The notes beneath the pieces are model-generated. The model ran no database searches. It saw only the letters and a program-made list of their open reading frames with translations, and was not told where the DNA came from. Shown here in pieces: positions 10,887 through 64,000 of a stretch of 64,000 nt of DNA. Each line of letters starts with the position of its first letter. The first letter of the stretch is position 1. Both the position numbers and the translations under genes were made by a program. Source of the stretch: Bacteroides cellulosilyticus (GTDB lineage: Bacteria; Bacteroidota; Bacteroidia; Bacteroidales; Bacteroidaceae); NCBI RefSeq assembly GCF_020091405.1, contig NZ_CP081903.1, positions 5,828,501 to 5,892,500 of the forward strand, given 5' to 3'.

Positions 10887-10888
10887 AG

Positions 10889-11476: not shown

Positions 11477-11508
11477 AATCGTGTCAATTTAAAAGTTAAT
11501 AATCATTG

Positions 11509-11581: not shown

Positions 11582-11589
11582 ATAGTACC

Positions 11590-11622: not shown

Positions 11623-11639
11623 TATCTTCAATCGTTATA

Positions 11640-11663
11640 CACGACAATCGGTTTATTGTCGTG
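11640..11663. promoter_or_regulatory. 24-bp dyad, copy 2 (CACGACAAT-N6-ATTGTCGTG)
   Basis: Perfect 9-bp arms with a 6-bp spacer (CGGTTT), same core and geometry as the dyad at 4019-4042. It straddles the stop codon of the 68-aa gene and lies about 20 bp upstream of the tRNA promoter boxes, a good place for an activator or repressor of the downstream late genes. Confidence 0.6.
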
Positions 11664-11859
11664 AACTAAGCCAAATATCTCTTTCTTCTCTGCAAGCTTT
11701 CAGTGTTGGGGCTACAGTTGCAAACAGATCACCTGATTCTGTTCGATAATCATACTGATACATTCGCTTTGGCTTACCTTTGATTTTCACTGTGAAGGTG
11801 CAATAATTCTCTTTACCTGGTTGGCATACGCTGCAACCGTTTTCGTTTATTGAGTTCAT
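11653..11859 (-). CDS. Small phage protein, unknown (68 aa)
   Basis: 68 aa with an N-terminal CSVCQPGKENYC cluster (four cysteines counting the pair in CSVC), possibly metal-binding. Coupled to the previous gene by ATGA at 11856-11859. Its stop codon lies inside the 24-bp dyad. Confidence 0.6.
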   Translation of the reverse strand: MNSINENGCSVCQPGKENYCTFTVKIKGKPKRMYQYDYRTESGDLFATVAPTLKACREERDIWLSSRQ

Positions 11860-12185
11860 AAGCTATATTTTACTGTATTATCTTCAATCCAAACCTCAGA
11901 CGCATTTCGTCTTTGCATCACACTATCATGGTAAACTTGATTTTCTTTGGATATTCTCGCAAATTCAGTTTTAACTTGGCTTAATTCACGCTCTAACCTT
12001 AATACTTTTTGAGAATCCGATTCACCGTTATCTTTCATAAATGGTGTCATTTCCATATCTCGCATTGCATCCAAATGGTCTATAAAATCACTTGCAACTT
12101 TCTCGATTACATCGGTTGATGCAGAAATATCATATTCTTGAAATATATCTGCCATTGCTTCTATATCTTCATTTCTCATAATCAT
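11856..12185 (-). CDS. Phage protein, coiled-coil, unknown
   Basis: 109 aa, acidic and helical; residues about 60-85 (QKVLRLERELSQVKTEF) look like a coiled coil. Overlaps its neighbours by four bases at both ends, so one of three tightly coupled small early genes. Confidence 0.6.
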   Translation of the reverse strand: MIMRNEDIEAMADIFQEYDISASTDVIEKVASDFIDHLDAMRDMEMTPFMKDNGESDSQKVLRLERELSQVKTEFARISKENQVYHDSVMQRRNASEVWIEDNTVKYSL

Positions 12186-12382
12186 TCAGTTCTATAAGTT
12201 TTACCACCAAATTTCTCATCGCCATCTACCAATATATGATAGCTGATATAAGGCTTGTTCTCTTTATCGTTATGCTCTTTGCATTTAACCCTTGCTTCTT
12301 CAATTGTATCGCATTTGCACATGGTGTATTCGGGATAGCCATCGAAGTATCTTACAACTCTATATTCTTTGCTCATAATCAT
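12182..12382 (-). CDS. Small phage protein, unknown (66 aa)
   Basis: Starts MIMSKEYRVVRYFDGYPEYT; either M1 or M3 could be the start. Likely a small alpha/beta protein; the YRVVRYFDGY and EEARVKCKEHN segments recall generic phage early proteins. Overlaps the next gene by four bases. The 180 bp upstream (12383-12564) hold no convincing gene. Confidence 0.6.
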   Translation of the reverse strand: MIMSKEYRVVRYFDGYPEYTMCKCDTIEEARVKCKEHNDKENKPYISYHILVDGDEKFGGKTYRTE

Positions 12383-47457: not shown

Positions 47458-48666
47458 TTATTCCAGAATTACTACTCGGTTCAAATAGTTCTTACCGAAC
47501 ATGTTAGCAGTACCACCGAATCCAACGAGTTCGAGCTGATCCTTATCAACACCTTCCTTAATCAATGCGTCGTAAACAGCCTGAGCACGTTTTTCAGACA
47601 ACTTCTGGTTCCAGGAAGCGCTACCCGTAGCCTTGTCAGCATAACCGGCAACTTTGTACTTCTTATCCGGGTTAGCCTTCAGAATCTTGGCAGCCAACTG
47701 GATGTTAACCATACCGTAATCATCGATGCGAGCGCTACCAATCTTGAAGAAGATGGCACGAGGACCGGCAACTTCAATTTCCTTCACTACTTCCTTAGTT
47801 ACAGGCTTAGCGTTAGCCAAAGCGTTCTTAGCGTTAGCCAGGTCAGCCTGAGCTTGTGCCAGTTCACTTCTGTACTTATTGATTTCGTTGTTGATAGCAT
47901 TCTGATCAACTTTCGAGCCACAAGCTACGAACTTCTTGCCACCGAAAGTATAAGTAACACCTGCAGTCAGATGAATATAACCATCGGTATTAGCGCTACT
48001 ATAAGCACCCAAGATTGACGGAGTAACCTGACCGCGAGCTTCTACGTCGATAGCCAAAGATCTATTCACATTAAATTTAGCTCCTACACCTACACTGGCA
48101 CCAACTAACCAGCGTAAATCGTGATTAACAGGCGTAGTAGTTGCAGGGTCAATCGTTGTAGTATATTTAGTATCGCCAGTCGGAGTCGTTACACCGCCAT
48201 CAGTCTTATAACCCAATTGCCAATCTGCATAATTTTTCACAATGTTAACTGAAGGACCTGCAAATACGCTCAACTCAAACAAACGATCCGGGTTATAACC
48301 ACAAATCAGGTTGGTAAGGTTCAACATAGCGTCGGCGTTCAAACCTACATAGTTTTCTTTACGCTCTTTGCGATTATCCAAATCCAGGAACGGATAAGCA
48401 GTTTCCTGCTTTGATTGCCAACCATAGATTTGTCCACGAACTCCCCATATAGGAGAAATGTACTTACCCACTGACAGGTTGATCAGCGGAGTCACCGTCT
48501 TACCAAATTTGGTGTCAGGATTCGTACCAGCCTGTGCACCTACCCCCACACTGATAAAGATATTGTCCTTCCAGCTTTCACTGTAGTACTTCTCTTTAGT
48601 TTGTGCAGTGGCAACAACAGCCGCTCCCGACAACAGTAAAGATAATATTACTAATTTACTTTTCAT
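47458..48666 (-). CDS. OmpA-like protein of silent cassette 1
   Basis: 402 aa. Signal peptide (MKSKLVILSLLLSGAAVVATAQ), an N-terminal beta-barrel of about 220 residues, a coiled segment (NNEINKYRSELAQAQADLAN), and an OmpA peptidoglycan-binding domain (YKVAGYADKATGS, KLSEKRAQAVYDALIKEGVD). The last 150 residues are almost identical to the copy at 52407-53528, while the barrel differs. Last gene of the cassette; anchors the outer membrane to the wall. Confidence 0.85.
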   Translation of the reverse strand: MKSKLVILSLLLSGAAVVATAQTKEKYYSESWKDNIFISVGVGAQAGTNPDTKFGKTVTPLINLSVGKYISPIWGVRGQIYGWQSKQETAYPFLDLDNRKERKENYVGLNADAMLNLTNLICGYNPDRLFELSVFAGPSVNIVKNYADWQLGYKTDGGVTTPTGDTKYTTTIDPATTTPVNHDLRWLVGASVGVGAKFNVNRSLAIDVEARGQVTPSILGAYSSANTDGYIHLTAGVTYTFGGKKFVACGSKVDQNAINNEINKYRSELAQAQADLANAKNALANAKPVTKEVVKEIEVAGPRAIFFKIGSARIDDYGMVNIQLAAKILKANPDKKYKVAGYADKATGSASWNQKLSEKRAQAVYDALIKEGVDKDQLELVGFGGTANMFGKNYLNRVVILE

Positions 48667-48722
48667 TGTTTTTTAGTTTTTATTGTTTAACTCTTTATAC
48701 TTATTCACTTTTCAGGCGAAAC

Positions 48723-49481
48723 TTACTTCAACGTAAATCTAAACATGAGTCCGCCGGTAAAATATTTCATTTTTTGCAATTCTACCTGCGCATGCAAATG
48801 GTTGAAAAGCAAATAGGTGGCACCCAACGCAAAATCTTTCGAATCATATTCCGCTATCACCCTCAAATCCGGTGCGAAACTGGGATTGTAAGTGATACCC
48901 GCCGCTATTCCGTTCAGCTTGTACTCCTTTCTCTGATTATATAAATAAGAGAGGTGTACTCCGATTTCTTCTGTTCCTATCGGCAGATGCTTGGTTGCAG
49001 CTATATAAAAACGGCTGAAATATCCGTTTCCGCTTGATGAACCAACTACCCCACCTCCGGAAGAAGTAAACGGGTCTGATGTTCCCAGAACCACAGCCGG
49101 CATATACTTCCAGAATTGCCCTTCTTTCAAAGCTCGCAGTCGGACAGAGAAATATCTGTCCTGATTCGTAAAACCCGAGTAACCGTAAGGTTTTAAGCCC
49201 AGTGCTTCCGCTTTAAAAAGTGTGCATGTGTATGCCACTTCCAACCAGGGGAAAAAGGTCACATTCAGGTAATAGTTGTACGTATGATAGTACCACGTAG
49301 GAGGAGTTATCTCCTTGTTCATAAAGTTGGCACCCAGCATTATTGTCTTATCTTTCTGCATTTCAGCGGAAGGGGCATGCAACAATCCAGTAGTACCATA
49401 AGTTAATTGAGCCGAAAGTACAAACGCACAGCATAAAAATATGCACGTTGTTATAAATCGTTTTATCTGCATTCTTTTCAA
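48723..49481 (-). CDS. YjbH-like outer-membrane protein of silent cassette 1
   Basis: 252 aa. Signal peptide ending FVLSAQ, then QLTYGTTGLLHAPSAEMQKD, the start of YjbH-type barrels. Nearly identical at protein and DNA level to the copy in the expressed cassette (63087-63836), differing mostly in the signal peptide and last 25 residues: recent duplication or gene conversion. Probably helps place the cassette lipoprotein on the surface. Confidence 0.75.
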   Translation of the reverse strand: MKRMQIKRFITTCIFLCCAFVLSAQLTYGTTGLLHAPSAEMQKDKTIMLGANFMNKEITPPTWYYHTYNYYLNVTFFPWLEVAYTCTLFKAEALGLKPYGYSGFTNQDRYFSVRLRALKEGQFWKYMPAVVLGTSDPFTSSGGGVVGSSSGNGYFSRFYIAATKHLPIGTEEIGVHLSYLYNQRKEYKLNGIAAGITYNPSFAPDLRVIAEYDSKDFALGATYLLFNHLHAQVELQKMKYFTGGLMFRFTLK

Positions 49482-49526
49482 TTCGTTTATACTCCCGACT
49501 TAATTGTATAGATTGCTATCCCACGA

Positions 49527-51038
49527 TTATTCAGGAACTACAATACCACCACCGGCATTACCACTTCCATGACCATGACCGTGACCGTGAGCATGAGATA
49601 CAGTATCTACAATATAGTTACTAAGTTCAATACCATTAGCTTCTTTTACTACATTGTTAGCACCATTCAATTTCGTTAATGTACCTTCAACCGGAACATC
49701 ATTAACTGTAATACTTGCCACTTCACGAGTTATCTGATTATATACACGGGTAACATCCAGTGTTTTCAACCAATTATCATAAGGAATTACGTAATCGAAA
49801 TCAGTTTTTGAGTTTAATGTTTTTTCTTCTTTACCGAATTCCGCGATTACATTGACAGTCATCAAGCTTGCAATTTGCTCATAGATTGGATTACCAGCTG
49901 TCAGTCCTGCTTCTTTCAGCTTAGTCTCATAATTACCCTCTACTTCTACAGTACCGATATAATCCGTATAAGTAATGTTAAATGGTAAACCGGCCGGTTC
50001 ATCATCATTGCAGATATCTACAGTGACTGTTTTAAAGAATTCTTCAAGTTTCTTAGTCTGAGCAGGATCAACCAGATTTACCGCATAGTTGATCGGTGAA
50101 TCAACTTCACTATCACTTGTGCCATCGTCTTGAATCTCTATTCTCTTCTTGAATGTAATTGTTTCATTATTCGGTCCTACAATCTCAAAGACAAATGTTG
50201 CAGATTTCTTTTCTGAGTCAGCTCTTGTTACAACAGTGAACAAGTCAGCGGGAACCTCAAAATTATAAGTATAGCCTTCGTCAACTCCAAGTACCTTTGA
50301 CTTTTCCTCATTATATAAGGTAATAGCTTTAGCATTATATAGAGCGCCATTAACAGTCAATACACCAGAGATTTTTACTACGCCAACGGGAGCTTTCGTC
50401 AAAGTAACGATAATAGTTTTATCCTTTCCGCTTTCAGAAGATCTAAGTTTCAGCAACTCAGCAGTTACATATTTGGTTACATAGCCTTCTTTTGTGATTT
50501 TGATTATATAAGTCTCACCACCAAGAACAGCATTGACATCTGTAACTTCAGTTCCAGATACAGTCTGAATCGTATAATCTGTACCGAAAGTCAGATTACC
50601 TAGTTCAGTATCTTTCACAGCAAGCTTATAAGTACCTTCATACTTAGGTTGCATAGCAACAAAAGCAGGATATACAGCAGTCTGACCAGCTTCAATCTTT
50701 ACAACATCCACTGTAACTTTTGTATCTTCATAGTTAGCTGCGCTAACAGTGAGTTCATAAGCTTTGGGATCCGTAACTTTTGCTGTAAATCCGCCCTTGC
50801 TAACAGTTGCGGTAACATCTCCTGCTACGTTAGCGCTTGCAATGGGAGCCAAGGTTTCAGCATCAACTACTGTACCGGCAATCGTATAAACTGGAGCCGG
50901 GAGTGTAACTTCACCGGCAGGACCATTTACATCCAAGCCTTCATCCTTATAACATCCGGTTAAAAGAGCCCCAGATAAGGCTACTACGGTTAATGCCAAT
51001 TTAGCATTAAAACCACTGAATAAACTTTTCTTTTTCAT
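49527..51038 (-). CDS. Variable surface lipoprotein of silent cassette 1
   Basis: 503 aa. Lipoprotein signal with lipobox LLTGC (C29), a carboxypeptidase-regulatory-like beta domain (YTIAGTVVDAETLAPIASAN), further beta repeats, and a His/Gly-rich tail (HGHGHGHG then NAGGGI). DUF3869-like by recollection. Beyond the signal and tail it shares little with the other two cassette lipoproteins, so it is the antigenically variable item. Spacer to the next gene is 10 bp. Confidence 0.75.
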   Translation of the reverse strand: MKKKSLFSGFNAKLALTVVALSGALLTGCYKDEGLDVNGPAGEVTLPAPVYTIAGTVVDAETLAPIASANVAGDVTATVSKGGFTAKVTDPKAYELTVSAANYEDTKVTVDVVKIEAGQTAVYPAFVAMQPKYEGTYKLAVKDTELGNLTFGTDYTIQTVSGTEVTDVNAVLGGETYIIKITKEGYVTKYVTAELLKLRSSESGKDKTIIVTLTKAPVGVVKISGVLTVNGALYNAKAITLYNEEKSKVLGVDEGYTYNFEVPADLFTVVTRADSEKKSATFVFEIVGPNNETITFKKRIEIQDDGTSDSEVDSPINYAVNLVDPAQTKKLEEFFKTVTVDICNDDEPAGLPFNITYTDYIGTVEVEGNYETKLKEAGLTAGNPIYEQIASLMTVNVIAEFGKEEKTLNSKTDFDYVIPYDNWLKTLDVTRVYNQITREVASITVNDVPVEGTLTKLNGANNVVKEANGIELSNYIVDTVSHAHGHGHGHGSGNAGGGIVVPE

Positions 51039-51048
51039 CTCAATAAAA

Positions 51049-52023
51049 TTAAAAATTTAGTAATTCTGATTTAATAAAATATGGGTTAAAACTATTATTC
51101 TGCATTATATTCTCCCCCGGGTTCGCTCTATATCCTCTATAATAATACTGTTCATTGCCGGCATTGTAGGCAATTCCCATATTTTTAGATGGAGTAACTC
51201 GTGGAATATATCCTTTTCTCTTATATTTATAAGGTGGCAATGCCACTTGGAACCTGAATCCTCCGTTAGCACTTGCCCCCTCCGCTTTCATTGCGTAGAA
51301 ACCTATTGAAGCATAACGAAAGTGACGAATCAAGTCGAACCTCACCCCTTTTTCTCCTAACAGATATTGTTCTACTTTCAGACTTGCCTGCACATTATAA
51401 TGCGGATAATAAAAATTCGCCCCTAAAGCCCAGGTCATTCTTGTTTTCGTGCCATAGGTCCATTCAAATCCATCCCATCGTTGTGTAGCAGTCAGTCCAA
51501 TCCGGCCTTCTACTGAAAACCTTTCATCCTTAAATGTATGTAGTAGTCGAAGGTCTCCTCCATAGCGTTCAGCATTAAACATTCCCAAAGTTCCGGTAAG
51601 CCATATATTATAAGGCAAGCGAACGGTTTGTTGCAATGTTAAAAAGCCCGGATGTACTCTATCGGCTCTTCGTCCATACCCGTCATTATAAACAGGAACA
51701 ACAACCTGCGCCGTCAACTTCATCCCTTTCCAAAACGAAACTTCAATTGCCGGTGACAAATTAAACAGCACCTGATAAATCTGCGTTATAATCAGATTCT
51801 TCAATGAAACTTCCGGATATACCACCACATCTACCTTAAACAAAGAGCTATTCTTCCTCCCTATTTTCCGTGCTTCCTTCCACGTTCCACCCAAATCATA
51901 GCTAACATTCCAATCCCGACGACTCGCTTCCGGAACACTATCACCGATTATCGGTTTATAATAGAGAGAAATCTGAGGTATATTATTGTCTAAAACAATT
52001 ACCCTACATGGCTTTTTATCCGG
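51049..52023 (-). pseudogene. Silent 5'-truncated YjbH-like/outer-membrane gene (cassette 1)
   Basis: The frame matches residues 91-415 of the expressed gene at 60167 and begins exactly at the 17-bp site (PDKKPCR). No ATG precedes: the first possible start is a TTG at 51894. It lacks promoter, signal peptide and 90 residues. Otherwise the frame is intact to the C-terminus FNPYFIKSELLNF, as expected for a stored cassette kept under selection by occasional expression. Confidence 0.85.
52007..52023 (-). repeat. 17-bp recombination site, silent cassette 1
   Basis: CCGGATAAAAAGCCATG on the minus strand, identical to 57449-57465 (minus) and 60437-60453 (plus). Similarity with the expressed gene stops just upstream of it, apart from GGTTT-like bases before CCGG. 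Confidence 0.75.
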
Positions 52024-52337
52024 AAACCGGGAGAGGTATCGTTTAATCTAGTTGCATTTTGTAATATCCTGATAATCAAACAATAATGCGTTATTTATAA
52101 AAAGTAAAATATTGAGATATTTGCCGTTTTTCATGTTATGCAAAGCTTTATTGTTACCTGTTTGTTTCTCAATTCGTTTGTTGTATTTAATAATTATTTA
52201 ATTATATATTTATCAAAAAAAATCATTGAAGGACTTCTTAATGTAAATAATTGATATTTCCTAATTATATTCTAATATTGCCACATAAATAATTTCATTA
52301 TCAACCAGTAATTACTTGATTTCTTTATAACAAAAAA
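52024..52337. other. Non-coding gap between cassettes 1 and 2
   Basis: AT-rich, no gene, no promoter with a full TTTG-N19/21-TAnnTTTG on the minus strand upstream of cassette 1, in line with that cassette being silent in this orientation. Confidence 0.5.
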
Positions 52338-52371
52338 GGTGTCTAGCAATAGCTAAACACCTTTTCTCTTT
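52338..52371. terminator. Terminator of silent cassette 2
   Basis: GGTGT-C-TAGC and GCTA-A-ACACC pair around AATA (one mismatch), with A-run and T-run on opposite sides, so usable in both directions. Confidence 0.75.
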
Positions 52372-52406
52372 TATAGAATTTCTATTATATTATAAGAAAT
52401 ATTATC

Positions 52407-53528
52407 TTATTCCAGGATTACAACTCGGTTTAAATAGTTCTTACCGAACATATTAGCGGTACCACCGAACCCGACGAGTTCAAGTTGATCCTTATCAACG
52501 CCTTCCTTAATCAATGCGTCGTAAACAGCCTGAGCGCGTTTTTCAGACAGCTTCTGGTTCCAGGAAGCGCTACCCGTAGCCTTGTCAGCATAACCGGCAA
52601 CTTTGTACTTCTTATCCGGGTTAGCCTTCAGAATCTTAGCGGCCAACTGGATGTTGACCACACCGTAATCATCGATACGGGCGCTACCAATCTTGAAGAA
52701 GATGGCACGAGGACCGGCAACTTCGATTTCTTTCACTACCTCCTTAGTTACAGGTTTAGAGTTAGCCATGGCATTTTTAGCACTTGCTAGGTCAGCCTGA
52801 GCCTGAGCCAGTTCGTTTCTGTACTTATTGATTTCATTGTTGATGGCATTCTGATCAACTTTTGCACCACAAGATATAAAGTTCTTACCGCCAAAAGTAT
52901 AAGTAACACCTGCGGTCAGAGATACTGCACCATCCGTGTAGGCGCTGCTCTTATTCCCAAACATAGAAGGAGATACTTCACCTCTTGCCTCAATATTGAT
53001 ATCCAAATACTTGCTCACATTGAACTGTCCCATCAAACCTACAGAACCGTTAATCAAAGCATTTAATTTATCTTGCTCACCATAAGCCTTTGCAAAAGTC
53101 AATCCGGGACCTGCGAACACAGATAAAGTAAATAAGCGCTCCGGATTATATCCGCAAACAGAGTTAGACAGGTTATACATAGCATCTGCACGCAGAGTGA
53201 AATACTTCTTGTTCTTAACCTCAGCATAAGTGCCTTTTATTTGTCCGCGCTCTGTATACAGTGTCGACCATAATCCGGCAACTTGTCCGCGAACTCCCCA
53301 GATAGGATTGAACAGTTTACCCACTGACACATGAATCAGTGGTGTGATGGCATGTCCGAAGCCATAATCAAAGTTGTCAGGATTAACACATGCCTGAGCT
53401 CCTACACCAGCGCTTATAAAGATATTATCTTTAAATTTTTCGCTGTAGTATTTCTCTTTGGTCTGTGCAGTAGCTGTAAGAGCTAATCCCGCCAACATGA
53501 TAGATACTATACCAAATTTACATTTCAT
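52407..53528 (-). CDS. OmpA-like protein of silent cassette 2
   Basis: 373 aa. Signal peptide MKCKFGIVSIMLAGLALTATAQ, a barrel distinct in sequence from the cassette 1 copy, then the near-identical coiled and OmpA C-terminal parts (EIEVAGPRAIFFKIGSARID onward). The split between a divergent barrel and a constant C-terminus suggests gene conversion of the C-terminal half. Confidence 0.85.
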   Translation of the reverse strand: MKCKFGIVSIMLAGLALTATAQTKEKYYSEKFKDNIFISAGVGAQACVNPDNFDYGFGHAITPLIHVSVGKLFNPIWGVRGQVAGLWSTLYTERGQIKGTYAEVKNKKYFTLRADAMYNLSNSVCGYNPERLFTLSVFAGPGLTFAKAYGEQDKLNALINGSVGLMGQFNVSKYLDINIEARGEVSPSMFGNKSSAYTDGAVSLTAGVTYTFGGKNFISCGAKVDQNAINNEINKYRNELAQAQADLASAKNAMANSKPVTKEVVKEIEVAGPRAIFFKIGSARIDDYGVVNIQLAAKILKANPDKKYKVAGYADKATGSASWNQKLSEKRAQAVYDALIKEGVDKDQLELVGFGGTANMFGKNYLNRVVILE

Positions 53529-53579
53529 TGTTTTTTCTATTTTAAAATGATTAACTCTATGCTTTTTCTGCCAGATTCT

Positions 53580-54329
53580 TTATTTCAACCGGAACTGGAA
53601 ACATAATCCACCCGTGAAATATTTCATCTTTTGCAGTTCCACCTGTATATGCAGATGTTTTAAAAGCAAGTAAGTGGCTCCCAATGCAAAATCTTTTGAA
53701 TCATACTCCGCAATCATTCTTAATTCAGGCACAAAAGTTGGATTATAACTAATACTCGCCGCTATTCCATTCAGTTTATACTCTTTTCTTTTATTATATA
53801 AATAAGAAAGGTGTACTCCTATTTCTTCTTTTCCTATGGAAATATGCTTGGTGGCCGCTGCATAGAAACGACTATAATATCCGTTTCCTTCTGTAGAACC
53901 AACCGAACCTCCTCCGGATGAAGTAAATGGATCTGATGTTCCGAAAACAATAGCTGGCATATACCTCCAGAATTGTCCTTCTTTCAAAGCCCGTAACCGG
54001 ATAGAAAAATATCTATCCTGATTCGTGAATCCTGAATAGCCATAAGGCTTTAACCCTAAAGCTTCTGCCTTAAACAGGGTGCAAGTATAAGCAACTTCCA
54101 TCCACGGCAGGATGGTAACATTCAAAAAATAATTGTACGTATGGTAGTACCACGTAGGAGGAGTTATCTCCTTATTCATAAAGTTTCCTCCCAGCATCAC
54201 TGTCTTGTCCTTTTGCATCTCTGCCGAAGGAGCATGCAGTAAACCGGTAGTTCCATAAGTCAATTGAGCCGAAAGCATGGATGATACACTGATAAGCAGT
54301 GTCGCAATGAACATCCGTTTTATTCTCAT
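53580..54329 (-). CDS. YjbH-like outer-membrane protein of silent cassette 2
   Basis: 249 aa from MRIKRMFIATLLISVSSMLS; an ATG at 54344 adds five residues. Signal peptide ending SAQ, then the family start QLTYGTTGLLHAPSAEMQKD. More diverged from the other two copies than they are from each other. Confidence 0.75.
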   Translation of the reverse strand: MRIKRMFIATLLISVSSMLSAQLTYGTTGLLHAPSAEMQKDKTVMLGGNFMNKEITPPTWYYHTYNYFLNVTILPWMEVAYTCTLFKAEALGLKPYGYSGFTNQDRYFSIRLRALKEGQFWRYMPAIVFGTSDPFTSSGGGSVGSTEGNGYYSRFYAAATKHISIGKEEIGVHLSYLYNKRKEYKLNGIAASISYNPTFVPELRMIAEYDSKDFALGATYLLLKHLHIQVELQKMKYFTGGLCFQFRLK

Positions 54330-54377
54330 TATGTATAGTCCCATGCTTTAGGTTCAATTGCATTATTTAAAACAGGC

Positions 54378-56471
54378 TTATTCGAAATCGATAATACCAC
54401 CGCCTGCATTCAAATCCTCACCATTGCCATGTCCATGAGTATGACCAATAGCATAATTTGCAGTCAGAGTTGTAGAGATAATCTTCTTAACTACCACTGT
54501 TACGTCTGTAGTCTTTTTGTTCTTATCAATTACATGAACAGTATATGATCTTCTTACTTGTTTTCTGACCATACTGAAGTCGTTAATTTGCTTGTATGCA
54601 GGAACTGAGATATCTACAGATAGAGCCGTTTTTGAGTAACTGTTCTTCGGTGCAATGTTAGCATTGTCTTTCAGAATCATGTTTTTCAGCAACATTGTTA
54701 CGTAAGATTTCGTTTCTGTATTCATGCCGGTCAAGGCAGCTTCAACAGCCAAGGCAGGAGTATTTCCATCATAAGCAGTTCCACCCATGTAGTTACCTTT
54801 TACAGTAACTACAGCTGCTGCAGAGCCTGTATAGCAAGGCTTATTGATGATTTCAGCATCCAGCTTAACACTGTCTACAGGAACGATAGCTGATTCAAAA
54901 CCGAAACGGAATTTAGAGAAGTGATTGATTTTACCAACGAAAGTGCCTGAAGTCATATCGTATTCAGCATAATTATTAGCATCAGCTGACCACACACCGG
55001 TTTTTTCGTTTTGATAAAGAACACCTAATACATAGTCAGGTTCTACAGTAACAGTAACCGGAGCCTGGAACTTAACTTCCAACGGCTGAGAGAATACGGT
55101 ACCGCTGGGTTGTCCTTCGTAAGTACGTACAGCAGCGGTTGCCTTTTCAGTTTGTATATCGCGAGTCAGCTTGATTGCTTGAGCCTGGCCACCTACATAA
55201 TAAACTTGTGTGTTAGCAGGTAATGTGATCTGATCAGCAACAGTTTTAGTCTCTTGAGTTGTTTCACCTGTTGTTTCATCAATAACAGCTTCTGTAGATA
55301 CAAGTTCTACTACGAGAGCCTCTTCTACTTTTACCACTGGAATATCAATTTTAGTAATATCCTCAATTCCTAGTTCCTCAGCAACTTTCTCGATATCTGC
55401 TTTTACTTCCGGCTCTTTAACATCTTCAACTTTCGTCGGCTCAGCTTTATCTACAGGCACTTCAATAGTCTGTTCACCACCCTTACTTGGATCTTCATCA
55501 GGGATATCACTGCTTTCAGCTTTCAAAACAACTTCAATGGAAGTCACAGAAGTAGCACCAGTTTCAACCAATTTCACAACTGTGGCTTTTGCTTGTGCAA
55601 CATAACCGGCTTTTGAAACTGTAACAATAGCCAATGTTGTAGGAGTGATATGTTCAGCTGCTACTTCTATATTGAAATAACCACGATTATCAGTAGTGAG
55701 ATCAGCTTTGAATTCACCAACTTCAACTTTTACAGTAGCGTCGGGCACAGCAGCATCTTTTTCATTGGTAACGAAGCCGCATACATAGTATTTAGACACC
55801 TTTGCAGTTTCCTCCTTTTGCATCAATACGGCAACTGTAGAAGTTACAATCTGGTCGCCTTCGCCTTCTTCTGCAGTAACAGGAGCTACGGTGATAGTAG
55901 CGTAAGCGTTTTTGTAACCCTCAGCTGTAAGAACAGCATAATAAGTGCCCGGTTGTACCCCTTCTACTGTGAATGTGTTGTTAACAACTGCAATTGTACA
56001 TCCTGGTATAACTACTGACGACAATTTTACAGCAGTGCTACTTTCATCAGTTGCAGTACCTTTTATGGCATATTTTACAGTCTTGTATGTCGGAGTATCA
56101 TACCCCGGATACATAGCTGCGTTAACTGTGTAGACAGCGGTTTTGCCATTTTCAATCTTTTCCACATACACTGAAGTCGTGACAGTCTTGTAATCATCTT
56201 TAGTAACAGTCAGAACGTTCAGCCCTTCTGTTGCATCTAAAGTATAAGTACCATCATCAGCAGTAGTAGTACCGTTCACTTTGGCGCCAGACAACGGTTC
56301 TCCGGTAGAAGCATTAGAAACGACACCTGCAATTTTGTATACCGGTTTCACTGTACTCGGTGCCTCTGTCGTTAATTCTTCTTTTTCGTAGCAGCTGGCG
56401 AACATGCCGCAGATTGCTACTAACATTAACGCTAACTTCACGTTAATACCAAACAAACTTTTCTTTTTCAT
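54378..56471 (-). CDS. Variable surface lipoprotein of silent cassette 2
   Basis: 697 aa, the longest of the three. Lipobox MFASC (C27), three or more carboxypeptidase-regulatory-like beta domains in its first half, a proline/glutamate-rich middle (KAEPTKVEDVKEPEVKADIE), and a C-terminal half ending GHTHGHG then NAGGGI. Same role and position as 49527-51038 and 61425-63020 but largely different sequence. Confidence 0.75.
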   Translation of the reverse strand: MKKKSLFGINVKLALMLVAICGMFASCYEKEELTTEAPSTVKPVYKIAGVVSNASTGEPLSGAKVNGTTTADDGTYTLDATEGLNVLTVTKDDYKTVTTSVYVEKIENGKTAVYTVNAAMYPGYDTPTYKTVKYAIKGTATDESSTAVKLSSVVIPGCTIAVVNNTFTVEGVQPGTYYAVLTAEGYKNAYATITVAPVTAEEGEGDQIVTSTVAVLMQKEETAKVSKYYVCGFVTNEKDAAVPDATVKVEVGEFKADLTTDNRGYFNIEVAAEHITPTTLAIVTVSKAGYVAQAKATVVKLVETGATSVTSIEVVLKAESSDIPDEDPSKGGEQTIEVPVDKAEPTKVEDVKEPEVKADIEKVAEELGIEDITKIDIPVVKVEEALVVELVSTEAVIDETTGETTQETKTVADQITLPANTQVYYVGGQAQAIKLTRDIQTEKATAAVRTYEGQPSGTVFSQPLEVKFQAPVTVTVEPDYVLGVLYQNEKTGVWSADANNYAEYDMTSGTFVGKINHFSKFRFGFESAIVPVDSVKLDAEIINKPCYTGSAAAVVTVKGNYMGGTAYDGNTPALAVEAALTGMNTETKSYVTMLLKNMILKDNANIAPKNSYSKTALSVDISVPAYKQINDFSMVRKQVRRSYTVHVIDKNKKTTDVTVVVKKIISTTLTANYAIGHTHGHGNGEDLNAGGGIIDFE

Positions 56472-56487
56472 CTCAATAAAATTAAAA

Positions 56488-57465
56488 TTAATAAACTAAT
56501 AATTCTGATTTAATAAAATATGGGTTAAAACTATTTGATTGCATTATATTGTCGCCGGGCGACGAACGATAGCTTTTGTAATAATATTGCTCGTTCCCTG
56601 CATTATACGCCATTCCCATGTTCTTGGAAGAGGTAAAACGAGGAATATATCCTTTCCTCTTATATTTATAAGGTGGCAAGGCAATCTGAAAACGAAAGCC
56701 GCCGTTGGACTTTGCGCCTTGCGCTTTCATTGCGTAAAAGCCTATTGAAGCATAGCGGAAATGCCGGATAATATCTACTCGCACTCCTTTTTCACCCAAT
56801 AAATACTGTTCAAGTTTCATAGTCGTCTCTACATTATATTGTGGCCAATAGAAATAACCTCCAACTGACCATGTCATTTTTTTCTGTGTTCCAAAGTGGC
56901 AGGTAAATCCGTCCCAGTATGCCGCTCCTGTATATCCGATACGTCCTTCAATTCCAAATCTGTTATCACAGATTAAACGATGACTGATCTTCACATCTAC
57001 TCCATAGCGTTCGCTACTGAAATGTCCTACTGTAAGTGTTCCCCAGATATTATGGGGCAATCTTACCGTTTGTGATATGCCAATAAAACCAGGATGTATC
57101 TTATTATACATATCCGGATATCCGTCATTATAAATAGGTACTTCCAGTTGTGCTGTCAGTCTCATCCCTTTCCAGAAAGAGACTTCTATTGCCGGTGCCA
57201 GATTGAACAGAACCTGATATATTTGCGTAATTACTAGGTTCTTCAATGATAATTCCGGATATATTACCACGTCCACTTTAAACAAAGAACTATTCTTCTT
57301 TTTTACTTTACCTGCCTTTTTCCAATTAGTACCCAGATTATAGCTTACATCCCAATCCTGCCGAGCCACCTCTGGTAAACTATCGCCTATAATTGGCTTA
57401 TAAAATAATGAAATTTGGGGTACGTTATTATCCAGAACAACAATCCGGCATGGCTTTTTATCCGG
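56488..57465 (-). pseudogene. Silent 5'-truncated outer-membrane gene (cassette 2)
   Basis: Matches residues 91 onward of the expressed gene and starts at the same 17-bp site. No ATG: the first possible start is a GTG at 57369, well inside the conserved region. Frame otherwise intact to FNPYFIKSELLVY. Promoterless and without a signal peptide in this orientation. Confidence 0.85.
57449..57465 (-). repeat. 17-bp recombination site, silent cassette 2
   Basis: Identical to the sites at 52007-52023 (same direction) and 60437-60453 (opposite direction). Just upstream (minus strand) TTATCC and GGATAA form a short dyad across the site edge. Confidence 0.75.
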
Positions 57466-57587
57466 AAATCAGGATAAGGAAATATCAGATAAATAAAACA
57501 TACAATTAGCTAATATTTAGCGAATTGCATAATACTAAACAATATCATTACTTTTCTTTATTGTTTCTTTTTTAGACATTAATATTG

Positions 57588-57595
57588 TATATTTG
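57588..57595 (+). promoter_or_regulatory. Candidate -7 box of the recombinase gene
   Basis: TATATTTG, a full -7 match, about 195 bp before the recombinase start; no consensus -33. A palindrome ACCATGGT lies nearer the gene (about 57740). Confidence 0.35.
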
Positions 57596-57791
57596 TTGCT
57601 GGTTTGTTACTATTTCTACATCATTGAAACAAATGGGCCTTCTTTTTATTTTTCTAATATTCAATAAATTAAATATAAATAGAAGTAACAGAACAGAATA
57701 AAACTCAAATGCAGAATCATTTGAAACCTGTTTTTGTTACCATGGTGTTACTATAAAAAATAATATGTATGCTATTTTCAACAGATAGAAG

Positions 57792-58946
57792 ATGCTAAAC
57801 AGAGATATGAAGGAAGAACTAAAAATAAAAGAGCCAATAAAGCTGAGAGTCAAGCACCTTGCTAATGGCAATAAATCGATATATCTTGATATGTATATGG
57901 ATGGAAAACGAAAATACGAATTCCTGAAATTATATATTATACCTGAATATAATAAATCAGACAGGGTACGTAATAGTGAAACACTAAAATTAGCAAATGC
58001 CATTAAAGCCCAAAGAATTATTGAATTACAAAATCAGAGTCATGGTTTTAAAATCAATAAAACATCTCACATTAAACTGATTGATTATATACAAGGCGTT
58101 GCTGAGAAGAAGTCCGAGAATGAGGTGCGCAAAACGGTGTTACATGCTGTAGTCTATCACCTTAGGCGTTATGACCCTAATGATACCCTGTTAAGCCGGA
58201 TAGATAAAGATTATATTTTGGGATTCCTGGATTATCTAAAAACAGCAAAACAAACTCATACTAAGAAAGAGAAACTTCTGCATGTAAATACTCAAGTCTA
58301 TTATTATAAAATGTTGAGGTATTGTCTGAATTATGCAGTATCGGAAGAACTGATATCGGCAAACCCTATGAATAAAATGAAGAATGAAGAAAAGCCACAT
58401 AAACATCGTACAGAAAGGGAATATCTCACGATTGACGAAATAAGAAAGTTGGCGCAAACTCCTTTTTATAATGCTTTATTAAAGAAAGCTTTTCTTTTCA
58501 GTTGCTTTTGTGGATTGAGGCATTCTGATATCATAGCTCTTACATGGGGAAATATAGAAATGGACGAGGAGGGTAATTCCCGGCTACATATCATACAAAA
58601 GAAAACCAAGGAGGCTATTTCTTTACCTTTGAGCCAAGAAGCTATAAAACAGTTGCCGCAGCGAGAAAATGCTAAAGATGGCGATATAATATTCAAAAAG
58701 TTAATAACATTGGGAAGAACAAATGAAATTTTACCGAAATGGGCTGAACAGGCTGGGATTAAAAAGCATATTACATTCCATACAGCCAGGCATACCCATG
58801 CGACTATGTTGCTAACTTTAGGCGTCGATCTGTATACCGTTTCTAAATTGCTTGGGCATACCAATATACAGACCACACAGATTTATGCCAAACTTGTTGA
58901 TGAAAGCAAGAAAAAGGCAATTGACCTCATACCCAGTATAACATAA
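57792..58946 (+). CDS. Tyrosine recombinase of the cassette locus
   Basis: 384 aa. N-terminal arm-binding domain, SAM-like core-binding domain (about 90-195), and a complete catalytic domain: R243 in GLRHSD, lysine near 271, H330 and R333 in HTARH, H356 in LGHTN, Y365 in QIYAKL. Such genes beside inverted repeats in Bacteroides act as local DNA invertases. It lies within the segment that would flip by recombination between the silent and expressed sites. Confidence 0.92.
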   Translation: MLNRDMKEELKIKEPIKLRVKHLANGNKSIYLDMYMDGKRKYEFLKLYIIPEYNKSDRVRNSETLKLANAIKAQRIIELQNQSHGFKINKTSHIKLIDYIQGVAEKKSENEVRKTVLHAVVYHLRRYDPNDTLLSRIDKDYILGFLDYLKTAKQTHTKKEKLLHVNTQVYYYKMLRYCLNYAVSEELISANPMNKMKNEEKPHKHRTEREYLTIDEIRKLAQTPFYNALLKKAFLFSCFCGLRHSDIIALTWGNIEMDEEGNSRLHIIQKKTKEAISLPLSQEAIKQLPQRENAKDGDIIFKKLITLGRTNEILPKWAEQAGIKKHITFHTARHTHATMLLTLGVDLYTVSKLLGHTNIQTTQIYAKLVDESKKKAIDLIPSIT

Positions 58947-59252
58947 TTTATCTCATAAAAGCAAAAGGATTATGATACAAATTGAAATACGTTTGTAACA
59001 TAGGATTTCTTCATTCTCACTTTAAACCCTGAAAGTCATTTCAGAAAATGCAGAATGACAAATGCAGGCAAGTAATATCAAAATGATAGCAATTTATTCT
59101 TTTTAATGTTCTAATTGATAAGTTATACTTGTTTTATATGACACGTTACATTTGCGAAATTTGCCTTCCAGCATATTTTATGAATAAACAATGATTATAT
59201 ATTCCGTAATTATGCATATTGTTGCAGGTTTGTGGGCTATTTATACAGAAAA

Positions 59253-59332
59253 GGGTTACTACTTATAGATAAAAGGGCTACTACATATAAGCTATATCAT
59301 TACTACTTATTGGCAAAAGGGTTACTACTTAC
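59253..59332 (+). repeat. Four direct repeats, exactly 22-bp period
   Basis: GGGTTACTACTTAT (59253), GGGCTACTACATAT (59275), TCATTACTACTTAT (59297) and GGGTTACTACTTAC (59319). Start-to-start distance is 22 bp each time, two turns of B-DNA, so the same face is presented. AAAA precedes three of the four. Likely cooperative protein-binding sites (recombinase arm sites or a regulator). Confidence 0.8.
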
Positions 59333-59620
59333 TGGTAATAAGCCTATTCGTCTCAATATTTCACGTTTATCAACAAGCGTTTTGTCCTAAAAAAGATGTA
59401 ATTATTTCGATATACATCTAATAATCTGACTTTTGCTGTTTTTTTATTCTTTCTTTTCATCATCACATCCATTAGATTGAAAACAATGGATTCTCAGCTA
59501 ACTAAAAATACAAAATGTCAAAAAGATTATTTACCTGCTTTTTGAAACTTTGCACATAACAAGGTTAAAAAACTCCTGAACTTAAAAAAAGACAGATCGT
59601 ATGTTTATAAAAGGGACCCA

Positions 59621-59826
59621 TTGGCGGAATTAATGTTTTCTTTCTCGCGTCTGCAAGGACTCAAAACCGGGTTCTGTTCGCACCTGCCCCATATCTGGTC
59701 CGTACCTGCTCCGTAGCAAATTCGGTTAAAAGTACCTCTAACCGAATTTGCTACGGAGCAGGTACGGACCAGATACCTATTTGATAGGTTCCTGACTAAA
59801 GCCAGGCCAACGGCTAATCCCGCCAA
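59621..59826. repeat. Nested inverted repeats with a perfect 37-bp stem
   Basis: Inner pair: 59692-59728 and 59739-59775 are perfect complements over 37 bp, loop of 10 bp. Outer pair: TTGGCGGAATTA (59621-59632) and TAATCCCGCCAA (59815-59826), 11 of 12 matching. A further small dyad ACCTAT-TTG-ATAGGT overlaps the right edge. No U-run follows, so it is not a standard terminator. Confidence 0.85.
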
Positions 59827-60091
59827 CGAGTAAAATGAGGTTATAAATTATCATTGTAAGTACGTAGAATGAACTTATGGAACTTTTAAGCAAATAATAA
59901 TTCGTTTTTTATGAAACGCATATATAATCAGAATTACGTTTGAAGGTCTATTTTTCATATAAATGTCGCATTTATTAGTCATTTATTAACCTCTTAATCA
60001 TGCATTATAAGCTTATAGGCAAAGAATGTTAGCGTTATGAGAACAATTATGCAGAAAAAGCTACATTATTTTATTTTTTCATGTAAAATTC

Positions 60092-60122
60092 TTTGGTATT
60101 ATTAAAAATGTGTCTATTTTTG
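60092..60122 (+). promoter_or_regulatory. Promoter of the expressed cassette
   Basis: TTTG (60092-60095), exactly 19 bp, TATTTTTG (60115-60122): a full Bacteroides consensus. Transcription would start about 60128, 40 bp before the first ATG. It is the only consensus promoter seen for the three cassettes. Confidence 0.82.
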
Positions 60123-60166
60123 CACCATATTTTGTGTCGTAAAGATATGAAAATTGAATAAATAAA

Positions 60167-61414
60167 ATGAGGTATAGAAACTCTAACATGGGAAAGTGTC
60201 TAGCTACTAAAACAATAGCACAATGTGCGGCGCTCTTTTTATTCTGTTTGCTTCCTTTAAAGGGAATTTGCCAAACAGGAGAAAGTACGGTGAATACTTT
60301 AGTAGAGATGGGATTTGAAAATGTAGGGTGGACGGAAGATGGCAAAGAGCGTGTATACGTCTTGCAAAATTCTGCGTATCGTCTGAATGGAGTCGGCATT
60401 GGCAAGGCGGTAGACATTATTCAAAAAATGGGTTTACCGGATAAAAAGCCATGCAGGATAATTGTTCTAGATAATAACGTACCTCAAATTTCTCTTTACT
60501 ATAAACCGATAATCGGTGACAGCGTCCCTGAAGCAAGTCGTACGGATTGGGACGTTAGTTACAATTTAGGTGACTCATGGAAGCTGGTTCGGAAAGAAAA
60601 GAGAAAAAATAGTTCTTTGTTTAAGGTAGATGTGGTTGTGTATCCGGAAGTATCATTAAAAAATCTGGTGATTACGCAGGTATACCAAGTGCTTTTTAAC
60701 TTATCACCAGCAGTCGAGGTCTCATTTTGGAAAGGGATGAAGTTAACTGCGCAGGTTATTTTCCCGGTTTATAACGACGGGTATGGTGATTTAGCGGATA
60801 AAGTACGCCCGGGATTTCTGACATTACAGCAAACTGTTCGCTTACCATATAATACATGGCTTACAGGAACTGTCGGAACATTTAATGCCAGTCGGTATGG
60901 AGGTGATTTAAAATTGCTTCATGTGCTAAAAGCCGACGAGCGTTTCTCGTTTGAAGGACGCATAGGGTTAACCGCTGCGTATGAATGGGATGGATTTGAA
61001 TTTTACTATGGAACAAAGACACGCTTGACATGGAGTTTAGGAGCCAATTTTTATTGGCCCGAATATAATGTTCAGGCAAGTTTGAAAGGTGAACAATATC
61101 TATTGGGTGAAAAAGGCGTACGGTTTGATTTGATTCGACACTTCCGCTATTGCTCGATTGGCTTTTATGCAATGAAAGCGCAAGGAGCAAAGTCAAATGG
61201 CGGTTTTAGATTTCAAATAGCGCTCCCACCTTATAAATATAAGAGAAAAGGATATATACCGCGGGTGACGCCCTCAAAGAATATGGGTATCGCTTATAAT
61301 GCAGGCAACGAACGCTATTATTATAAGGGATTCCGGGCTAACGCAAGCGAGAACATAATGAGTAATAATAGTTTTAATCCATATTTTATTAAATCAGAAT
61401 TACTAAATTTTTAA
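60167..61414 (+). CDS. Expressed outer-membrane (YjbH-like) protein, first gene of the active cassette
   Basis: 415 aa from ATG 60167; ATG 60188 gives a neater signal peptide (MGKCLATKTIAQCAALFLFC, cleaved after GICQ). Residues to about 90 form a constant N-terminal domain; from P91 the sequence corresponds to the silent copies. The rest is beta-rich and ends FNPYFIKSELLNF. Probably an outer-membrane barrel needed to export or anchor the lipoprotein encoded 10 bp downstream. The 17-bp site lies at codon 91, in frame in all three copies, so inversion would give full-length fusions. Confidence 0.8.
   Translation: MRYRNSNMGKCLATKTIAQCAALFLFCLLPLKGICQTGESTVNTLVEMGFENVGWTEDGKERVYVLQNSAYRLNGVGIGKAVDIIQKMGLPDKKPCRIIVLDNNVPQISLYYKPIIGDSVPEASRTDWDVSYNLGDSWKLVRKEKRKNSSLFKVDVVVYPEVSLKNLVITQVYQVLFNLSPAVEVSFWKGMKLTAQVIFPVYNDGYGDLADKVRPGFLTLQQTVRLPYNTWLTGTVGTFNASRYGGDLKLLHVLKADERFSFEGRIGLTAAYEWDGFEFYYGTKTRLTWSLGANFYWPEYNVQASLKGEQYLLGEKGVRFDLIRHFRYCSIGFYAMKAQGAKSNGGFRFQIALPPYKYKRKGYIPRVTPSKNMGIAYNAGNERYYYKGFRANASENIMSNNSFNPYFIKSELLNF
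60437..60453 (+). repeat. 17-bp recombination site, expressed copy
   Basis: CCGGATAAAAAGCCATG, codons 91-96, inverted relative to the two silent sites. Distances: about 3.0 kb to site 2 and 8.4 kb to site 1. Confidence 0.75.
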
Positions 61415-61424
61415 TTTTATTGAG

Positions 61425-63020
61425 ATGAAAAAGAAAAGTTTCTTTAACGGCTACAATGCTAAATTAGCATTAGCCGTAGTGGCCTTAACAGGGTCATTAC
61501 TCACTGGATGTTACAAGGATGAAGGATTGGATATCATCGATCCCGATCAGAGTGTAACATTGCCAGCTGCCCAGTACACAATTACAGGTACAATTTACAG
61601 TGCTGAAGGTACTATCTTGACTGCTGCAACAGTTACATCAGATAAAGGTACTGTTACTCAAAGCAGCGGGTCTTTCACTATTTCAGGCTTGTCACACGGT
61701 GCTGTAAAGGTTACAGCTAATTGCACAGGTTTCGATAAACAAGAGACAACTGTGAACATTGCTGAATTGAAACCGGGACAAGCTGCTGTTTATCCTGTTA
61801 ACTTCGTATTAGGCAAAACAGCTACAACCAAAGAAGTTGAATTGAGATATGACCTCAAGGTAACAGTTTTGGATGAAGACATGAATGTAATCAACGATGC
61901 TGACGTAACTGTATATGGTGCAGGTGCTACAGAAGTAGATTATGAAACTACTCCTCTAACTGCCGGTGCATATAAGATTAAAGCAAGCAAAGACGGATTT
62001 GTATCTACTATCCAATACATATCTTTGCCGGCTGCTAAGAAAGAAGTAGCTATTGACTTCGCAGACGCATTTGCTACTGAAGATTACGCAACAGAAATCG
62101 TTCTGGTTAAAACTGCTACAGGAACAGTAGTTCTTGCGGGTGACTTGAAGTTTGGTAACAGATGGATGTTGGCAAAAGTTGTACGTTTGTACAATGACAA
62201 GGGCACTCAATTCTACGGTGAAGGTAACTCCAACACTTATGCGTATAAGTTTAATGTTCCTGAAACTGAATTCGTAGAAGAGACTACAACCAGAGCCATT
62301 TCTTCTAAATTCTTTAGTGCTACTTTCAAGATCGTAGATGAAAATGGTATTGAAATGACTTTAGTTCAGAAGATTGCTAAACCTACAGCTAGTACAGAAC
62401 CGGGTGGAGAAACTCCGAATGTTGAAGTGAAGATTGATTTCTCATTCAATGTTGAAGTTACAAGAACTAATGCTGCTCCTACTCTTGTACCGACAGTAGA
62501 TACTTTTGATCCTATGATTGTAAATGGAACTGATAGAGTTAAGCAATATACTTATGACATTCCAGTATTAGTAGGTATGAAGACTATTGATATACAGGGA
62601 GGTAACCTTGGCAGTGAAACTGCATTAGGTGTAGCAGTTGCTCAAGCTATGAAGGCAGCTACTGATACAATCGTTGCTGATGGATACAAAAACGAACTTA
62701 TAGAAAAGGGATACAAATTCGAATTAGCACCTTACACTGCTGTTAAGAGTATCACTTCTAAACAAGAATTCGTTGATTTCACTATAGGAGTAACAAAGGT
62801 AACTTCTACTACTATTATTACTTCAGGAGATGAAGAACCTGTTGAAACGACTACAGATGTAGACATGGATCTGTCTGGAGTATATGCGAAATACCAAGCT
62901 GCAGGTACAGCTACCGTTAACTATGACGATATGGAAATCATTAAGGTTTCTCACGATCATGGTCATGACCACGGTCATGGTACAGGCAACGCTGGTGGTG
63001 GTATCATCGAGGCTGAATAA
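61425..63020 (+). CDS. Variable surface lipoprotein of the active cassette
   Basis: 531 aa. Lipobox LLTGC (C29), N-terminal carboxypeptidase-regulatory-like domain (YTITGTIYSAEGTILTAATV), several beta domains, and the tail with HDHGHDHGHG then NAGGGI. Major candidate surface antigen expressed in this orientation; may form the surface layer or fibre of the locus. Confidence 0.78.
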   Translation: MKKKSFFNGYNAKLALAVVALTGSLLTGCYKDEGLDIIDPDQSVTLPAAQYTITGTIYSAEGTILTAATVTSDKGTVTQSSGSFTISGLSHGAVKVTANCTGFDKQETTVNIAELKPGQAAVYPVNFVLGKTATTKEVELRYDLKVTVLDEDMNVINDADVTVYGAGATEVDYETTPLTAGAYKIKASKDGFVSTIQYISLPAAKKEVAIDFADAFATEDYATEIVLVKTATGTVVLAGDLKFGNRWMLAKVVRLYNDKGTQFYGEGNSNTYAYKFNVPETEFVEETTTRAISSKFFSATFKIVDENGIEMTLVQKIAKPTASTEPGGETPNVEVKIDFSFNVEVTRTNAAPTLVPTVDTFDPMIVNGTDRVKQYTYDIPVLVGMKTIDIQGGNLGSETALGVAVAQAMKAATDTIVADGYKNELIEKGYKFELAPYTAVKSITSKQEFVDFTIGVTKVTSTTIITSGDEEPVETTTDVDMDLSGVYAKYQAAGTATVNYDDMEIIKVSHDHGHDHGHGTGNAGGGIIEAE

Positions 63021-63086
63021 TTCTGATTGTTAAGAACAATAGATCACAGATTGACCCGAAAGTATAAAGTGTATAGAGAAAGGCAG

Positions 63087-63836
63087 ATGCAGATGAAGCG
63101 AATAATAGTTACGTACTTGTTTTTATGCTGTGCGTTTGTACTTTCGGCTCAATTAACTTACGGTACTACAGGTTTGTTGCATGCCCCTTCCGCAGAAATG
63201 CAGAAAGATAAGACAATAATGCTGGGTGCCAACTTTATGAACAAGGAGATAACTCCTCCTACGTGGTACTATCATACGTACAACTATTACCTGAACGTGA
63301 CCTTTTTCCCCTGGTTGGAAGTGGCATACACATGCACACTTTTCAAAGCGGAAGCACTGGGCTTAAAGCCTTACGGTTACTCAGGTTTTACGAATCAGGA
63401 CAGATATTTCTCTGTCCGGCTGCGAGCTTTGAAAGAAGGGCAATTCTGGAAGTATATGCCGGCTGTGGTTCTGGGAACATCAGACCCGTTTACTTCTTCC
63501 GGAGGTGGGGTAGTTGGTTCATCAAGCGGAAACGGATATTTCAGCCGTTTTTATATAGCTGCAACCAAGCATCTGCCGATAGGAACAGAAGAAATCGGAG
63601 TACACCTCTCTTATTTATATAATCAGAGAAAGGAGTACAAGCTGAACGGAATAGCGGCGGGTATCACTTACAATCCCAGTTTCGCACCGGATTTGAGGGT
63701 GATAGCGGAATATGATTCGAAAGATTTTGCGTTGGGTGCCACCTATTTGTTGTTCAACCATTTGCATTTACAGGTGGAATTACAACGAATGCAATATTTC
63801 ACTGGTGGATTGATGTTCAGGTTTAACCTGAAATAA
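63087..63836 (+). CDS. YjbH-like outer-membrane protein of the active cassette
   Basis: 249 aa from ATG 63087 (MQMKRIIVTYLFLCCAFVLS), giving a signal peptide cleaved before QLTYG; the frame is open from 63027. From LTYGTTG to about residue 225 it is identical or nearly so to 48723-49481, including the DNA sequence. Confidence 0.78.
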   Translation: MQMKRIIVTYLFLCCAFVLSAQLTYGTTGLLHAPSAEMQKDKTIMLGANFMNKEITPPTWYYHTYNYYLNVTFFPWLEVAYTCTLFKAEALGLKPYGYSGFTNQDRYFSVRLRALKEGQFWKYMPAVVLGTSDPFTSSGGGVVGSSSGNGYFSRFYIAATKHLPIGTEEIGVHLSYLYNQRKEYKLNGIAAGITYNPSFAPDLRVIAEYDSKDFALGATYLLFNHLHLQVELQRMQYFTGGLMFRFNLK

Positions 63837-63895
63837 GAGAATGGTGAAGAATGAATAAGTAATAAAGAGTTAAATCTATTAAAAACTAAAAAACA

Positions 63896-64000
63896 ATGAA
63901 AAGTAAATTAGTAATATTATCTTTACTGTTGTCAGGGGCAACCATTGCCAATGCACAGACTAAAGAAAAGTACTACAGTGAAAGCTGGAAGGACAATTTC
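63896..64000 (+). CDS. OmpA-like protein of the active cassette (N-terminal part)
   Basis: 35 codons visible before the window ends: signal peptide MKSKLVILSLLLSGATIANA, then QTKEKYYSESWKDNF, almost the same as the cassette 1 OmpA. Completes the four-gene order. Confidence 0.85.
   Translation, partial: MKSKLVILSLLLSGATIANAQTKEKYYSESWKDNF

Follow-up and report, generated by a model that had tools for sequence, protein, structure and literature searches.

The right-hand part of a 64,000-bp stretch of the Bacteroides cellulosilyticus chromosome (assembly GCF_020091405.1, contig NZ_CP081903.1) was analysed as a candidate DNA inversion locus for surface proteins. The whole stretch, called the window below, corresponds to G000:C1:5828501-5892500 of genome G000, which is a single contig of 6,935,738 bp. 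Three cassettes with a common gene order were found, i.e. a beta-barrel gene, a lipoprotein gene, a YjbH-family gene and an OmpA-like gene; two of these (C1 and C2) point leftward and one (C0) rightward, and a gene for a tyrosine recombinase (REC) lies between. Only in C0 does the barrel gene possess its first 90 codons (the head). In C1 and C2 it consists of the remainder (the body), which begins at a 17-bp sequence termed the site. The gene map confirms this arrangement, which had been put forward in an original prediction made from the window; the OmpA-like gene of C0 runs beyond the window. The array adjoins thrS-TPR-def-ruvX, in which the names thrS, def and ruvX were assigned by reading the translations. 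The features are as follows.

47458..48666, minus strand: C1 OmpA-like protein
48723..49481, minus strand: C1 YjbH-family protein, start codon uncertain
49527..51038, minus strand: C1 lipoprotein, 503 amino acids
51049..52023, minus strand: body of C1, headless here, headed in the related genome G057
52007..52023, minus strand: site 1
52407..53528, minus strand: C2 OmpA-like protein
53580..54344, minus strand: C2 YjbH-family protein, start codon uncertain
54378..56471, minus strand: C2 lipoprotein, 697 amino acids
56488..57465, minus strand: body of C2, headless, open frame
57449..57465, minus strand: site 2
57792..58946, plus strand: tyrosine recombinase REC, 384 amino acids, inside the segment predicted to invert (PF00589, E 1.7e-26; Arm-DNA-bind_5; SAM-like)
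60092..60122, plus strand: promoter TTTG-N19-TAttTTTG, consensus Bacteroides type, 75 bp 5' of the head ATG
60167..60436, plus strand: head, signal peptide and start of the periplasmic domain, codons 1-90
60437..60453, plus strand: site 3, codons 91-96 of the headed gene
60437..61414, plus strand: body of C0, headed here, rest of the periplasmic domain and beta-barrel
61425..63020, plus strand: C0 lipoprotein (DUF3869 / CarboxypepD_reg; His-Gly-rich tail)
63087..63836, plus strand: C0 YjbH-family protein, start codon uncertain (PF06082, E 1e-13)
63896..64000, plus strand: C0 OmpA-like gene, start only (about 63896), continuing past the window end

Between cassettes the identity is 71-85% for the bodies, 81-96% for the YjbH-family proteins, 71-74% for the OmpA-like proteins and 33-35% for the lipoproteins. 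Pfam and NCBIfam scans, with 7 proteins each, found DUF3869, YjbH, OmpA and recombinase families, and no TonB or SusD families. From the site to the stop, the C1 and C2 bodies keep the reading frame over 324 and 325 codons, respectively, and contain no stops, in agreement with what had been claimed for the left copies. A TGA two codons 5' of the C2 site falls outside the body, and the C1 and C2 barrel reading frames, as listed, begin at internal TTG and GTG codons. The consensus promoter (TTTG-N19-TANNTTTG, 60092-60122) precedes the right cassette only, as anticipated; none is present in the window upstream of the C1 or C2 bodies. In all nine genomes scanned the promoter element lies 75-84 bp 5' of the head, and the head itself is a single-copy sequence in G000. 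One constant head and promoter are thus set against three alternative bodies, and C1 and C2 are probably silent because they have neither promoter nor start.

The 17-bp sequence CCGGATAAAAAGCCATG has three exact copies in the genome, all at this locus and each where a barrel body begins, which corroborates the positions given originally (52007-52023, 57449-57465 and, at codon 91, 60437-60453). Two copies are on the minus strand and one on the plus strand, the mixed orientation by which a shufflon is recognised. When up to two mismatches were allowed, the window gave three matches versus 0.01 expected, and the reversed control pattern had no exact match in the 6,935,738-bp genome. A chance 17-mer is ruled out by these numbers, despite the fact that an identical run of 17 bp is unremarkable by length (runs of 24 and 20 also occur in the body alignment). 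The site is of interest because it is located at the breakpoint and is identical within, but mostly not between, species. The 5' flanks of the three sites lack evident homology, whereas the bodies on the 3' side are homologous. In 12 genomes at least two sites could be read and compared; all copies were identical within 10 of these, and the 10 genomes together have seven different sequences. The octamer AAGCCATG occupies the same codons in 10 of 11 loci with REC versus 2 of 40 loci without it, counts that are uncorrected for relatedness. The two latter loci are L007, in which REC could lie off the contig because only 787 bases precede the head, and L029, which has no REC in 10 kb. Judged from sequence comparison, this is the pattern expected of an intragenic recognition element for a recombinase.

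Alternative orientations in relatives, predicted beforehand, were found in G057 and in B. stercorirosoris (G047/L006). In G057 the same head (100% amino acid identity) is attached to C1 (99%), the cassette that is silent in G000. Between the sites, 8.4 kb run in the opposite direction to G000 (positions 3480-12208 of the G000 locus align to 21304-12571 of G057 with 92.8% identity), and the flanks outside this block are collinear at 96%. The flanks of the half-sites are exchanged reciprocally: C1 carries the flank of the head, and the one found before C1 in G000 ('aaacgatacctctccc...') precedes another cassette. If the C2 segment is written X and the REC-promoter-head block R, the order is C1 / X- / R+ / C0 in G000 and C1 / R- / X+ / third cassette, with the head on C1, in G057 and B. 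stercorirosoris. The latter order matches the product of an inversion between the outermost opposed sites and thus supports inversion. Where the ruvX flank could be read, the headed cassette adjoins ruvX in L113 and L116-L118, and lies away from it in L114 and G000.

Protein records show the same exchange of bodies behind nearly constant heads. Heads 98-100% identical to that of G000 sit on bodies that are 99% like C1 (G057), 98% like B. timonensis (P0001), 95% like the silent body of G057 (P0088) and 94% like B. oleiciplenus (P0036). Protein P0015, which by its sequence appears to come from B. salyersiae, combines the head of B. salyersiae DSM 18765 (83 of the 83 residues present) with a body that is headless in DSM 18765 (324 of 324 residues); it is the headed form of the REC-adjacent cassette of this species. 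Overall, head identity reached 96% or more in 132 protein pairs, and in 35 of these the bodies are below 80% identity (5,995 pairs were examined, many from close relatives).

The distribution of REC was determined in 57 loci fetched via the headed protein, of which 13 were scored as having an internal headless body, 37 have a single headed body and 7 were left unclassed (L010, L012, L015, L023, L043, L054 and L062). An orthologue of REC (>55% identity) is present in 10 of the 13 loci with a headless body versus none of the 37 with a single headed body, five of which (L007, L028, L033, L036 and L048) have less than 3 kb of contig before the head. The three exceptions, L058-L060, are from distant phyla and were set aside because their head is too divergent for recognition, so that 10 of 10 loci with a headless cassette carry REC. 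The recombinase was also present in all three further genomes inspected (L113, L114 and L116). A survey of 298 genomes of Bacteroidaceae gave a homologue in 78, and in 12 of these, as judged by inspection, one or more headless copies accompany a copy that is headed or gapped. In G000 the opposed sites enclose REC, which shares its segment with the promoter and the head and has the motifs that presumably carry the catalytic residues.

In two draft assemblies contigs break at the site. B. timonensis contigs stop at ...CCGGAT and others begin at AAAAAGCCATG or AGAAAGCCATG, i.e. inside the site, and the L047 contig terminates exactly at its last base. Since a 17-bp repeat alone should not halt an assembler, these breaks likely reflect junctions that coexist in the culture. 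The B. cellulosilyticus DSM 14838 draft has runs of N at the site and in the YjbH-family gene, in a collection that also masks some stretches as N, so that such a run may be something other than an assembly gap. Its scaffold places the cassettes about 150-220 kb apart, and because of the N runs the cassette order was not used.

Overall, the data indicate that the locus is very probably a shufflon-type selector: a tyrosine recombinase would likely act at the 17-bp sites to invert the DNA between them, and one head would be joined to one of three four-gene cassettes. The site-specific inversion that had been proposed is supported by the layouts of relatives, the fusions of the head to alternative bodies, and REC tracking headless cassettes. 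In the mechanism envisaged, REC would cut and rejoin DNA at the sites. Inversion between sites 1 and 3 (8.4 kb) would place the head on C1, and inversion between sites 2 and 3 (3.0 kb, carrying REC, promoter and head) would place it on C2; the promoter, signal peptide and first 90 residues would move as originally predicted, but that list was incomplete, as the recombinase would travel too. Recombination between sites 1 and 2, which have the same direction, would delete C2. The headless cassettes would be untranscribed, or their first gene product would not be exported, and one set would be displayed per cell. The barrel, lipoprotein, YjbH-family and OmpA-like proteins may form a surface complex, and the variable lipoproteins (33-35% identity) and barrel loops could provide escape from phage, immune or predator recognition. 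We infer the switching in live cells, the role of the enzyme and the benefit.

A number of observations weigh against the selector. The evidence for inversion consists of comparisons between genomes (assemblies and protein records), mostly between species. The head was found on C2 in none of seven clade assemblies (G000, G057, G047, G117, G042, B. timonensis L046, and L047), so that of the three predicted sets C0 is seen headed here and C1 in G057, i.e. in different genomes. The two protein searches list the best 120 of 1,264 and the best 120 of 1,231 matches; among those listed in the latter, for which the C2 body was the query, proteins of more than 76% identity are all 260-342 amino acids long and thus too short to include a head. 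The C2 body of the DSM 14838 draft (L061 10004-10985) has two single-base gaps relative to G000, as a result of which the middle part is out of frame and 12 stops are encountered when it is read from the site; decay of a rarely used cassette and a draft sequencing error are both possible. In 2 of the 12 genomes compared above, namely B. fragilis Q1F2 and G080, the two sites are unlike at positions 8-9, and either the switch may be locked there or these positions may be unimportant. Finally, some bodies are mosaic: in P0002 and P0013 the shared stretch takes in the head and about 90 more residues, and C1 and the second silent body of G057 have at least 43 bp in common after the site.

Because the bodies are mosaic, homologous exchange must also act at the locus, and one may ask whether it does all the work, i.e. 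whether the head changed place in the course of evolution by homologous recombination or gene conversion among similar cassettes, with no part for a site-specific recombinase. The mosaics across strains and species (P0002/P0013 and P0005/P0006) and the common stretch past the site in the headed and second silent bodies of G057 would agree with such a route. We give it very little credence, however, as the homology starts only at the site, REC is found in 10 of 10 classed multi-cassette loci versus 0 of 37 single-cassette loci (the three distant loci set aside), and the codons used at the site hardly vary in loci with the recombinase, unlike those without it (10 of 11 versus 2 of 40). The headless cassettes could also be decaying duplicates in a frozen rearrangement, which would explain why those in the window are without promoter or start, why C2 is never headed in the clade assemblies or among the proteins listed, and why its frame is broken in DSM 14838. 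This explanation is scarcely credible in view of the absence of stops from all 17 headless bodies that were read (those of C2 in B. timonensis and L047 are free of stops too), the silent body of B. salyersiae DSM 18765 that reappears headed and fully identical in P0015, and the occurrence of both layouts among genomes. General decay of silent copies is accordingly rejected; the truncated copies, for which decay in relatives had been named as a refuting outcome, are broken in a single draft case.

A third alternative accepts the switch but makes it slow, with antigens replaced at the level of lineages rather than by phase variation within a population. That nearly all evidence comes from between genomes, and that the sites are mismatched in 2 of 12 genomes, speak for this. 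On the other hand, B. timonensis, B. cellulosilyticus and L047 have contig breaks or gaps within the site or next to it, which is what mixed cultures would give, and both the head and the body of P0015 are fully identical to those of DSM 18765. We consider a slow switch unlikely, though it deserves to be kept in mind. P0002/P0013, P0005/P0006 and P0060 have cross-species mosaic bodies, in one example of which the head is B. nordii-like and the body B. fragilis-like, and these sequences point to cassette transfer between Bacteroides species.

In SusC/SusD shufflons the inversion is carried out by a tyrosine recombinase, and in the PilV shufflon of R64 a constant N-terminal part is joined to alternative C-terminal parts at short asymmetric sites, so that only C-terminal segments of one gene change. 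At the present locus whole operons would change, and the recombinase and head are inside the segment predicted to invert. The SusC/SusD shufflons of Bacteroides (B. fragilis region EE) bring gene pairs behind one promoter by inversion (PMC5729914) and resemble the present locus in that inversion of a large segment sets alternative outer-membrane genes behind one promoter. The cargo here is, in contrast, a four-gene barrel/lipoprotein/YjbH/OmpA set, and the exchange is at codons 91-96, whereas in region EE the repeats are said to overlap the start codon (PMC5729914). Type I HsdS shufflons of B. fragilis (PMC3090145) likewise exchange protein segments within a gene, next to a tyrosine integrase, but what they swap is a domain of a single specificity subunit; at the present locus it is the part with the signal peptide that would move, and three genes downstream would switch along with it. 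The R64 PilV shufflon with its recombinase Rci (PMC11852207) is a further system close to the present one. The BT1927-type phase-variable S-layer loci of B. thetaiotaomicron (PMC12548429, PMC12578637, PMC12118408) have in common with our locus a surface lipoprotein with a barrel/OmpA partner, a nearby integrase and DNA inversion, but they flip a promoter flanked by CCGTTACCTABVRAGTAAC between on and off (PMC12118408), and here the choice would be among operons. This 19-bp inverted repeat has no match in the window with up to three mismatches allowed, and a repeat of the BT1927 type was rejected on that ground. Whole nutrient-uptake clusters are inverted beside integrases in B. intestinalis (PMC8375218), and a table of 311 invertible regions is available (PMC10939037).

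No description of the exchange of a YjbH/lipoprotein/OmpA operon via a head was found in the literature searched, outside which key papers lie; the locus may thus already be listed under regions R/S or CC of B. fragilis or in a supplementary table. The novelty is narrower than the original prediction had it, as SusC/SusD and HsdS shufflons were already described (PMC5729914, PMC3090145). By analogy, the locus appears to work like these two, with a cargo and geometry that are new. The fuller proposal is that a dedicated recombinase reads a site in barrel codons 91-96 and moves the promoter, the signal peptide and itself, that a whole four-protein complex is exchanged at once, that cassettes are traded between species, and that all this is previously undescribed; we would put its chances as about even. 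If true, gut Bacteroides, including B. fragilis, could replace an entire surface protein complex at once from a conserved chromosomal place, and the locus would be a candidate explanation where phage resistance or immune variation is so far unexplained. The proposal predicts which junctions, which recombinase and which states should occur, and existing long-read data are suitable for testing this. The site would also represent a clear case of concerted evolution in coding DNA, a recombination signal apparently shaping codon choice.

The barrel protein itself was compared with known structures. The AlphaFold2 model predicts a helix at residues 6-28 and an alpha/beta domain at 39-112. Foldseek with the barrel protein gave generic porins only (3 matches at E ≤0.001, best 1.5e-4), and OmpG heads the VIA-align ranking, which also contains the exopolysaccharide barrels PelB and BcsC; because the fold-match list barely covers the head domain, the fold of the head was left unassigned. 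A relative of solved structure was not found by sequence, the sole row (E 0.27) being at chance level. Pfam YjbH is matched by 9 of the 29 alignment members, and the C0 barrel protein of the window is unmatched. The three lipoproteins (49527-51038, 54378-56471 and 61425-63020) all end in a His-Gly-rich tail followed by NAGGGI and are otherwise very different; the shared tail could possibly bind metal or a partner.

Two contigs of one metagenome-assembled Bacteroides genome from deer gut (L043 and L054) share a start at barrel-gene codon 114, which may mark an assembly break or a further point of exchange. Elsewhere, at G000:C1:4570148-4571248, G000 encodes a second recombinase with 45% identity to REC, and a further switch may lie near it. 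In the stretch that separates REC from the promoter, imperfect 22-bp tandem units at 59237-59346 form a possible protein-binding array, and a near-perfect palindrome of 84 bp (42-bp arms, no loop) is present at 59692-59775. The latter has at least three further copies in the genome (87-98% identity), as a small dispersed palindromic element, and occurs also in the switch segments of B. timonensis and B. oleiciplenus.

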